The position numbers and the translations under genes are program-made. From a virus, in the IMG/VR virus record IMGVR_UViG_3300047408_000168, positions 1-36,199 of that record: a stretch of 36,199 nucleotides of DNA. One strand, 5' to 3'. The stretch's first letter is position 1. Every line of letters begins with the position of its first letter. Of the stretch, positions 8,965 to 32,873 are shown one piece after another. Below the pieces are notes generated by a model. That model worked only from the letters and a program-made list of their open reading frames with translations. It was not told the origin of the DNA and made no database searches.

Positions 8965-9334
8965 CTACAGCTCGACTCTGAAGTCGACCAGGATGGCGGC
9001 GGTCATCACCGCGGTCGATGCCGGCAGCGGTCCCGGCACGCTGGAGATTTGCACTGCTGCCTATGCCTCGGTGCTCGCCACCGTCACGCTCGCCGATCCA
9101 TCGTTCACCGAGTCGGGCGGCGTGATCACCATGGCGGGCCTGCCGCGCAGCGACACCTCGGCCGACAATACCGGCACCGCGGCGCTGGCGCGCATCAAAG
9201 ATTCAAACGGCACCGTGGTCATCAGCGGGCTGACCGTTGGGGCGGGCAGCGGCGACATCCAGTTGAACTCGGTCTCGATCACGGCAGGCCAGAATCTGTC
9301 GATCACCGCCGCTACCATCACGCATTCCGCATGA
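8954..9334 (+). CDS. Hypothetical beta-rich phage structural protein
   Basis: 126 aa from GTG. Ser/Thr/Ala/Gly-rich with alternating hydrophobic residues (LEICTAAYASVLATVTLADP, VVISGLTVGAGSGDIQL), as in virion beta-sandwich subunits. I have the impression of similar small proteins of this type in structural clusters of other proteobacterial phages, but cannot name a family. The stop overlaps the next start (ATGA), so it is part of the late operon. Confidence 0.6.
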   Translation: MAVNYSSTLKSTRMAAVITAVDAGSGPGTLEICTAAYASVLATVTLADPSFTESGGVITMAGLPRSDTSADNTGTAALARIKDSNGTVVISGLTVGAGSGDIQLNSVSITAGQNLSITAATITHSA

Positions 9335-30576: not shown

Positions 30577-31066
30577 GTGCGGCCTCGACTTTTGTTTGTG
30601 TCTGGGTGGTGTCCCCTCCCCTTCTCGGCGCCGCACGGCTTTGCCAGTCCCCTCAAAATGAGGGGGCCTGTTTGATGGATTTTTGGTGTGTCGTGCCACG
30701 TTCGCCGCCCCGCGAAAGATCGGGGCAAGCGGCCCCGGTGACCGGGGGTGAGAACACCTGCAACTAGGTGAGCGGGGCCTTCGAGCTTTCGCTCTATTGT
30801 ATAGCGTCCGCACCCCGGCCATGATGGCCGTGGGGGCGCAGCCGCTAAGCCGCGTCCGAGTGCCGAGCGCTGCTTCAACAGCGCGGGGACACCGTCGGCG
30901 GATAGAATCCGCCCAAGTTGCATCAGGGTTCTCACACCCAGCCGCGACTTTAGCGCTCGGGCGCCGGGCGTCGCAACGCCCAAATATGTGTAATTCTATA
31001 TCTTTTAGTTGTCGGCTCACGCGCTGCGCCCTTGACCTCGCCCCAGCAACATCCGCAAGGCAGCCG
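30577..31066 (-). other. Gene-free, hairpin-dense leader upstream of the repressor
   Basis: Nearly 500 bases with no convincing gene on either strand. Perfect inverted repeats: 30649-30665 (7 bp stem), 30733-30747 (7 bp), 30755-30770 (5 bp), 30783-30794 (4 bp), 30817-30829 (6 bp), 30867-30884 (6 bp), 30897-30913 (7 bp) and 30966-30981 (6 bp). Read on the minus strand (that of the repressor), 30783-30794 becomes GAGC-GAAA-GCTC with a GNRA loop and 30966-30981 becomes GGGCGT-TGCG-ACGCCC with a UNCG-type loop. An A+T-rich patch at 30982-31010 could hold a minus-strand promoter. This suggests a structured RNA or repressor leader; operators may be in it too. Confidence 0.5.
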
Positions 31067-31320
31067 GTACCACAATGGGTGCCACAGTGACTGCGCGACC
31101 GTGCGGGGAAAGCCGCCAAAATGCTATATGAAATGGGGGTTTGTGCGAGGTAACACAGAGCCGGCTTGGCTGGTTTAGCAAACCGCCGCCTTCAGCCACT
31201 CGGCCACGTCTCCGCAGGCAGAAATCCTTATAGAATGCGGGTTTCCTCGTCAACACGCGAAACGCGCCAACCGCGAAAAACGCGCAGAAAGTGCCACACG
31301 GTACCACAATGGGGACCACA
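31067..31320. other. Phage attachment site (attP) with tRNA-Ser core and arm-type repeats
   Basis: A core of 42 bases (31172-31213, minus strand) equals the 5' half of a tRNA-Ser(GCU) gene: acceptor GGAGACG, a D arm, and an anticodon loop TTGCTAA. It breaks after AAACC; the 3' half and T arm are absent. Five copies of a G(T/G)(G/A)CCACA motif flank it: 31067-31074, 31079-31086 on one side and 31291-31298, 31301-31308, 31313-31320 on the other. They have the spacing of integrase arm-type sites. The integrase gene follows, as in most temperate phages. Confidence 0.8.
31227..31253 (-). promoter_or_regulatory. Possible promoter driving the tRNA-Ser 5' half
   Basis: On the minus strand TTGACG (31248-31253) is followed after 15 bases by TATAAG (31227-31232), 13 bases before the first tRNA nucleotide (31213). 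The spacing is a little short for sigma-70, but the position fits a tRNA promoter. If real, the phage supplies both promoter and 5' half of the tRNA gene when it integrates. Confidence 0.45.
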
Positions 31321-31348
31321 GTAAACGGGCGCGAATGCCGATCTGTTC

Positions 31349-31627
31349 TCATGCCGATACCTCGGGATAATAGGCGCGAGCGACTTCCTGACCCCGTTTG
31401 GCCTTGCGGCGCGCGATCGCCACCGCCGGATCGTCGGTGTGCAGCGACCAACGAAAACGCTGGCCCTTAACCTTGGTCTCCGCCCACAGCACCGCCCCGC
31501 GCCAATAGCAACCGCGCGGCGCCTTGGGTGCTACCTTCTCGACGGCCAGCACTTTGCGAAGGGCCAGACTGGCGCGCACCTCGGCCACGCTATCCGCTTC
31601 AACCTCGATCGTGACGCGGTACCTCAC
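31349..31627 (-). CDS. Stand-alone copy of the integrase N-terminal domain
   Basis: 92 aa from GTG 31627, overlapping the integrase TGA (GTGA), so translation is probably coupled. Residues 1-33 (MRYRVTIEVEADSVAEVRAS...) form a beta-alpha unit not found in the integrase. Residues from about 35 on (APRGCYWRGAVLWAETKVKG, QRFRWSLHTDDP) match integrase residues 5-36 (APAGCYWRDTVLWAQVKIKG, RRIRWSLDTDDP) at 23 of 32 positions without gaps. That part of the integrase is where arm-type DNA-binding domains sit. It lies between int and attP. It may bind the arm sites and change the choice between integration and excision, or be a decayed duplicate; no family is known to me. Confidence 0.7.
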   Translation of the reverse strand: MRYRVTIEVEADSVAEVRASLALRKVLAVEKVAPKAPRGCYWRGAVLWAETKVKGQRFRWSLHTDDPAVAIARRKAKRGQEVARAYYPEVSA

Positions 31628-32694
31628 GACGCCCGCCCGAACTTGGCGGCGCGCTCCACCGCGGTGGTGACGTATTTGAGGTAGCCCTCAGTCACCGCGA
31701 TGGTGGAATGACCGAGCCGCTTCTGCAGGTCGTAGAGGTCACGGCCCGACTGCAGCCAGTCAACGGCGTGCTTGTGCCTCAGGTCGTGGAATCGAAAGGG
31801 CTTGAACGGCACGCCGGCATCGGCCGCAAACTTGGCGGTACCGCCCACAAGGTTGTTCGCAAAATTTGCCGACGCGTTGCGGTAGGGCTCGCCACGGTCG
31901 TGCCAGAAGAGAAGATCGCAACCAACATAGCTCGGCAAGTTGGCGAACGCCTGATAACCGTCGAACGGTCGCAGGTCGATCACGCGCATCTTGTTGCCCT
32001 TGCCGATGACGGTCAGTTCCTTGCGCTGGTGATCGAGCTGCGAGCGCTTGGCGGTGACGAGCTCGGCCTGCCTCGCGCCAGTCACCCACGCCGCGCGAAT
32101 GAGCTGCGGCCACATCGAGACCGCCTGCGCGCCGGGACGGCGATCGCACTCTAGGCCGCGCGAGATCACCAGCTCGATATCCTTATCGTTCGGCAGCACG
32201 ATCGGGTCGCGGCGCTCCTTCACGCCCCGCATGCGCGGCAGCACCGGATTGCTCTCGCACCAGCCGCGGTCGACAGCGTAATTGATGACCGATGACAGCG
32301 CGCCGAGATCGCGGCGAACAGTGGCGTTGGTAACCACCTTCTGGCGTTCGGCAACAATGTCGCCGATGAGCCGCGCGTTAATGTCGGGAAGCTTGCGACC
32401 TTCCAGGAAAGGCGCGAGCTGACCTAGCGATACCATGTAGCGGATAAACGTCGCCGGCGAACTCTGCGCCTTGAAGTGTGTCCCCCACGCCTTGATCAGT
32501 TCGTCGAGAGTGTGCACGGCGTCACCGTGGATCAGCTCGGCGATCGCGCGGGCTTTGCCGGCTTCGCGACGCTGGCGCGCAAGCTTTGGATCGTCTGTGT
32601 CAAGGGACCATCGGATGCGCCGACCTTTAATCTTGACCTGTGCCCAAAGGACGGTGTCGCGCCAGTAACAACCCGCCGGTGCTTTCCTTGCCAT
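31624..32694 (-). CDS. int: Tyrosine integrase
   Basis: 356 aa from ATG 32694 with AAAGGAACG upstream. Residues 5-45 are a small N-terminal arm-binding-like domain (see the neighbouring 92-aa gene). Residues 60-150 are the core-binding SAM-like domain (HTLDELIKAWGTHFKAQSSP and following). The catalytic domain has R208 (VTGARQAELV), a likely K232 (IGKGNK), H303 and R306 in FHDLRH, H329 in RLGHST and the nucleophile Y338 (TEGYLKY). All catalytic residues are present, so it should be active on attP just downstream. It overlaps the upstream excisionase-like gene by 163 bases. Confidence 0.93.
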   Translation of the reverse strand: MARKAPAGCYWRDTVLWAQVKIKGRRIRWSLDTDDPKLARQRREAGKARAIAELIHGDAVHTLDELIKAWGTHFKAQSSPATFIRYMVSLGQLAPFLEGRKLPDINARLIGDIVAERQKVVTNATVRRDLGALSSVINYAVDRGWCESNPVLPRMRGVKERRDPIVLPNDKDIELVISRGLECDRRPGAQAVSMWPQLIRAAWVTGARQAELVTAKRSQLDHQRKELTVIGKGNKMRVIDLRPFDGYQAFANLPSYVGCDLLFWHDRGEPYRNASANFANNLVGGTAKFAADAGVPFKPFRFHDLRHKHAVDWLQSGRDLYDLQKRLGHSTIAVTEGYLKYVTTAVERAAKFGRAS

Positions 32695-32873
32695 GTCTCG
32701 CGTTCCTTTTGGCGCACGTAGGCGCGCAGCTTTTCGAGGTTGAACGACCAGCGTCGGCCAAATCGGGCAGCGCCGGGAATATCGCCGCGTTGGGCCATTT
32801 CCTGAACGGTGCGAACTGGCAGCCCAAGGATTTCCACCGCTCGCTCGATCGTCGCCCGTTCTGGATCGGCCAC
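32532..32873 (-). CDS. Excisionase-like protein, overlapping int
   Basis: 113 aa from GTG 32873 with AAGGAG seven bases upstream (a strong site). Residues about 5-50: RATIERAVEILGLPVRTVQE, MAQRGDIPGAARFGRRWSFN, LEKLRAYVR, the helix-turn-helix-17/excisionase pattern. The domain is finished near residue 55; the remaining 53 residues overlap the start of int in another frame and look like its shadow. So either the gene really overlaps int by 163 bases, or the tail is functionless. A -1 or +1 slip would fuse it to the integrase. It may steer excision or repress int. Confidence 0.65.
   Translation of the reverse strand: MADPERATIERAVEILGLPVRTVQEMAQRGDIPGAARFGRRWSFNLEKLRAYVRQKERETWQGKHRRVVTGATPSFGHRSRLKVGASDGPLTQTIQSLRASVAKPAKPARSPS

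Follow-up and report, generated by a model that had tools for sequence, protein, structure and literature searches.

Directionality in lambda-type integrases depends centrally on the arm-binding (AB) domain, which in lambda binds arm sites and steers recombination to integration or excision (PMC8138268), with each direction using different ensembles of arm sites (PMC4880445). The AB domains of the lambda Int N-terminus, Tn916 Int, and the HPI and P4-like integrases (3JTZ, 3RMP) have the same three-stranded sheet and helix that is predicted for the protein described here, orf92, whereas orf92 stands alone as a polypeptide, has a leader of its own and lacks core-binding and catalytic domains. 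The directionality factors Xis, Cox and RdfS resemble what is predicted for orf92, being small DNA-binding proteins whose genes accompany int and which could set direction, but they are winged-helix/HTH proteins, unlike orf92, and the phage studied here has a separate Xis of that type. Truncated integrase remnants in genomic islands resemble orf92 in being short, AB-only open frames; those found here, however, are of the DUF4102-type AB family, whereas orf92 is tidy and overlaps the stop codon of an intact int. The isolated N-terminal domain of lambda Int was reportedly studied in the laboratory by Sarkar, Radman-Livaja and Landy in 2001, and would thus also be an AB domain separate from its recombinase, but as a laboratory construct rather than a natural gene; the title of that report, as listed in PMC5871717, calls the domain a context-sensitive modulator. 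We know of no described natural family of free integrase AB-domain genes, and the literature searched, with incomplete coverage, names none.

The orf92 protein and its neighbors

The window, i.e., the whole stretch of DNA analyzed, is an entire IMG/VR virus record of 36,199 bases. Along its minus strand lie, in order, xis, int, orf92, three TGTRGY motifs, a TTGACG/TATAAG pair that resembles a promoter, the first (5') half of a tRNA-Ser(GCU) gene and two more TGTRGY motifs. The coding features are as follows.

32532..32873, minus strand: xis, an excisionase-type HTH protein of 113 aa, with a GTG start and AAGGAG upstream
31624..32694, minus strand: int, a tyrosine recombinase of 356 aa from ATG, whose first ~58 residues are an AB domain homologous to orf92
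31349..31627, minus strand: orf92, 92 aa from a GTG start, a free-standing arm-binding-domain ORF overlapping the int stop (GTGA)
31529..31627, minus strand: leader of orf92, residues 1-33, predicted strand-helix (strand 3-8, helix 14-30) at low confidence
31352..31528, minus strand: AB domain of orf92, with a beta-beta-beta-alpha prediction at a pLDDT of about 84-94 for most residues

The int product is recognized by the Phage_integrase (E 6e-15) and PHROG integrase (E 7e-47) profiles, and the xis product, encoded by a gene separate from orf92, matches TIGR01764. Since the int stop TGA (31626-31624) and the GTG start of orf92 share a GTGA overlap, orf92 is probably coupled in translation to int. 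A 92-codon frame would be open here by chance with P about 0.07, so that ORF length alone is not significant, and orf92 is taken as coding because of its homology. Among the six frames compared, codon usage fits best in the frame of orf92 itself, with a score at the low end of the range of true genes. The frame is free of internal stops and closes soon after the AB helix, with att sequence directly downstream.

Residues 35-86 of orf92 align to int residues 4-55 with 29 of 52 identical, and the best block, KAP..TDD, has 23 of 32 residues identical. In a search of the whole of its own record, the int N-terminus was the sole other match to orf92 (E 3.9e-20, 46%), a likeness therefore far beyond chance, and all 12 positions that are invariant in an alignment of 15 homologous AB domains are kept. 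Given this 15-domain alignment, AlphaFold2 predicts strands at residues 40-43, 46-53 and 56-61 and a helix at 67-86, mostly with pLDDT 84-94. Foldseek returned no match to the model at E 0.001 or better in the PDB or among viral predicted structures; a second-look aligner ranked three integrase AB domains highest, namely P4-like (Z 5.4), HPI (5.1) and HAI7 (4.9), with lambda Int at Z 4.1. These Z scores are modest, yet the top three ranks go to the expected family, in concordance with the sequence homology, and the assignment is supported in both alignment and model. With homology to an AB-containing tyrosine integrase and a predicted beta-beta-beta-alpha fold, it is thus well supported that orf92 carries an integrase AB domain. 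It does not qualify as a tyrosine recombinase, as the core-binding and catalytic domains and the nucleophilic tyrosine are found only in the neighboring int, nor as an excisionase or other directionality factor, as it has no excisionase match in Pfam, PHROG or NCBIfam and its predicted fold is different. The initial annotation, made from the sequence alone, had described a 92-aa ORF starting inside the int stop, with 23 of 32 residues identical to the integrase N-terminus behind a different 33-residue leader, and had taken the shared part for the region that should contact the arm repeats; the present analysis agrees on each feature of the ORF and, by homology, predicted fold and structural matches, on the domain. 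Separately, a viral protein of 51 residues, BFVD entry A0A2H4FUQ5, matches the AB model of orf92 across 48 columns (0.8 A, TM 0.87 of target, 23% identity), and may be either a further free-standing AB-like domain or part of an integrase.

The leader was folded at low confidence in both models made, and the searches made gave no convincing homologue of it; weak matches, inspected in their loci, were unconvincing and are ascribed to chance. An origin from the DNA upstream of xis/int was rejected, since the alignment to the DNA upstream of int was not significant, its score of 28.5 lying within the shuffled range (mean 23.8, maximum 41.5).

The xis gene and the AB part of int share 163 nt (32532-32694) in different frames, the same DNA encoding both the Xis tail and the AB domain. 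This long overlap is conserved: in the window and in 16 of the 16 relatives printed for comparison (L003, L004, L011, L017, L018, L032, L043, L074, L120, L145, L167, L168, L169, L171, L176 and L178), the xis frame crosses the int AB codons in +1 and ends 35-50 codons beyond the GCYW motif. Orf92 lacks the xis-frame overlap that characterizes these integrase genes: its +1 frame is already closed at 5 codons before the AB motif. Within the family of the int next to orf92, the Methylobacterium ajmalii integrase at L162 (1073-2243) matches in two pieces, residues 3-297 and 297-351, and its gene is probably frameshifted or interrupted.

Relatives and origin of orf92

The closest integrase, 88% identical, belongs to L004 (IMGVR_UViG_3300047388_000325), which is without orf92. 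There the int stop falls in ATGAGAACA; in the window ATGAGAACA, the same att sequence, comes after orf92, with the stops of int and orf92 275 bp apart and TGAG at both junctions. A search for the gene beside other integrases, as suggested in the initial annotation, gave no second convincing copy in peptide and DNA pattern scans of IMG/VR, in pattern scans of GTDB contigs (among the matches listed), at about 25 other related integrase loci (tblastn), in the whole records behind 16 loci, or in protein and profile searches of 296, 397 and 385 genomes from the groups that contain a Bradyrhizobium relative at family, order and class rank (samples that overlap in part, about 1,000 genomes altogether). 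In the 16 relatives whose sequence continues for at least 300 bp beyond int, no AB-containing ORF is found there, and tblastn of phage and plasmid records gave chance-level matches only. Convincing matches elsewhere were integrase N-termini in long frames. The records behind the 16 loci held two weak matches that we take as chance (E 0.02 and 0.08, 30-39% identity, frames of 88 and 58 aa), and the genome searches a single weak match (E 4e-4), in a short frame interrupted by a stop. Orf92 is thus an orphan in the collections searched, seen in one virus so far, and rarer copies may exist elsewhere; as no second copy recurs next to integrases of other elements in these collections and L004 is without the gene, orf92 is not yet a family.

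Evolutionarily, pN and pS are 0.38 and 0.72 between the orf92 AB part and integrases, and 0.38 and 0.65 for integrase-integrase pairs, which gives no hint of relaxed constraint in this part of orf92; the protein-level constraint could predate the domain becoming free-standing. Absence of homologues in relatives, or homologues full of stops, had been named beforehand as evidence against the proposed control device: free-standing homologues are indeed absent from the relatives examined, which counts against it, but orf92 itself is intact and the constraint on its AB part looks undiminished. In the AB tree orf92 sits on a long branch (1.0), and it is as close to the L003 and L167 integrases as to its own Int; with this and with pS near saturation, recent duplication of the phage's own int was rejected. 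Excess synonymous divergence, considered as proof of long freedom from the xis overlap, was apparent on ten sequences and not distinctive on 18, and was dropped.

Nearly as likely as the modulator function that we propose below is a non-functional mosaic fragment, in which illegitimate recombination at the int/attP boundary joined the 5' part of another integrase gene to an unrelated leader, leaving a frame that has stayed open through chance and recency. Such illegitimate events concentrate at att sites and at the ends of integrases, and the orphan status of orf92, its long branch, the TGAG that bounds the indel relative to L004 on both sides, and the chance of an open frame of this length all fit such an origin. 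So does the background of AB-only fragments: 8 of ~165 matches to PF13356 (another, DUF4102-type AB family) lie in frames <150 aa, among the matches listed, by a hand count over 119 genomes of the same host family that includes some frames at contig ends. The fragment reading sits less easily with domain boundaries that are tidy at both ends, with a start that overlaps the int stop, with the retention of every invariant AB residue, and with a pN/pS no worse than that of functional integrases. Moreover, orf92 bears neither mark of a truncated remnant: no overlapping xis frame lies upstream of its AB motif, and no trace of a core-binding or catalytic domain lies downstream, where att sequence is found instead.

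The attP region and a possible role for orf92

The attP region next to orf92 has the following features.

31293..31320, minus strand: three int-side arm-type sites, TGTRGY (31320, 31308, 31298), at spacings of 12 and 10, the same in L004
31227..31253, minus strand: TTGACG/TATAAG, resembling a promoter and conserved in L004, upstream of the tRNA half
31172..31213, minus strand: attP core, 42 nt, the 5' half of a tRNA-Ser(GCU) gene
31069..31086, minus strand: two far-side arm-type sites, TGTRGY (31086, 31074), at a spacing of 12, the same in L004

With this 3+2 layout of TGTRGY around the core, attP has five arm-like sites, predicted here from sequence; lambda attP also has five (PMC4880445). 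TGTRGY pairs 9-13 nt apart occur only in the attP arms within the whole 36-kb record, and the arm-like sites of L004 (9103-9130 and 9336-9353) repeat both the 3+2 layout and the 12/10/12 spacings. The arm repeats near attP noted at the outset are real, forming one 33-nt pair (31065-31097 and 31299-31331) that flanks the tRNA core. The bases between arm repeats are CCC in the window and AAAA in L004, and within each phage both arms agree. In both attP regions the tRNA-Ser(GCU) segment is the 5' half, where a 3' half would be usual (window 31172-31253, minus strand; L004 about 9169-9260), and integration would, judging from this arrangement, rebuild the host tRNA gene behind the predicted phage promoter, downstream of int.

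An unlikely reading is that orf92 mainly regulates transcription rather than recombination, binding the arm repeats to control int/xis or a phage-borne promoter that would drive the host tRNA-Ser after integration. For such a regulator speak the promoter-like element, which separates the int-side arm sites from the tRNA half and is conserved in L004, and the closeness of the AB fold to AP2-type DNA-binding domains; against it, L004 has this promoter and these arms but no orf92, and no arm-like cluster lies upstream of xis/int in the 36-kb record. Very unlikely is a decoy, an AB domain diverged from that of its own Int that recognizes and blocks the arm sites of another integrative element: orf92 is equally close to the L003 and L167 integrases and its DNA specificity may therefore differ from that of its own Int, but no candidate target element or arm sites were identified.

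We tentatively prefer the reading that orf92, acquired recently, acts in trans at the arm sites to compete with Int or modulate it. Functionally, a separate polypeptide made of an integrase AB domain and a small leader, presumably gained recently in the phage lineage of the window, would be translated from the int mRNA in amounts that follow those of Int, and would bind at least one of the five TGTRGY sites that make up the attP arms, as well as the arms of attL and attR, where it may compete or cooperate with the AB domain of Int. Because a free AB domain would occupy arm sites without a catalytic domain, recombination is expected to be damped or redirected, and orf92 may thus shift the balance of integration and excision or damp recombination, with the leader possibly serving oligomerization or contact with Int. 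The AB homology and predicted fold, the tidy domain edges on both sides, the GTGA overlap, the missing xis-frame overlap, the 12 invariant residues, the integrase-like pN and pS, the own-frame codon usage and the confinement of closely spaced TGTRGY pairs to the attP arms argue for a modulator, as features read from sequence, and so does the part that the AB domain plays in lambda, whereas the orphan status, an L004 that does without orf92, the low-end codon score, the leader without relatives and the modest Z scores argue against it. More doubtful is that orf92 is a dedicated natural gene, whose free AB domain, co-translated with Int, sets the direction or amount of recombination in trans via the arm sites, and thus belongs to a different class of control protein from the HTH directionality factors.

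Should orf92 be no more than a fragment, it illustrates how domains of integrases become recombined at the int/attP boundary. If instead it works at the arm sites, a natural AB-only gene would be a simple, separable control knob for insertion and exit, and arm-site occupancy alone as the setter of direction would become directly testable.
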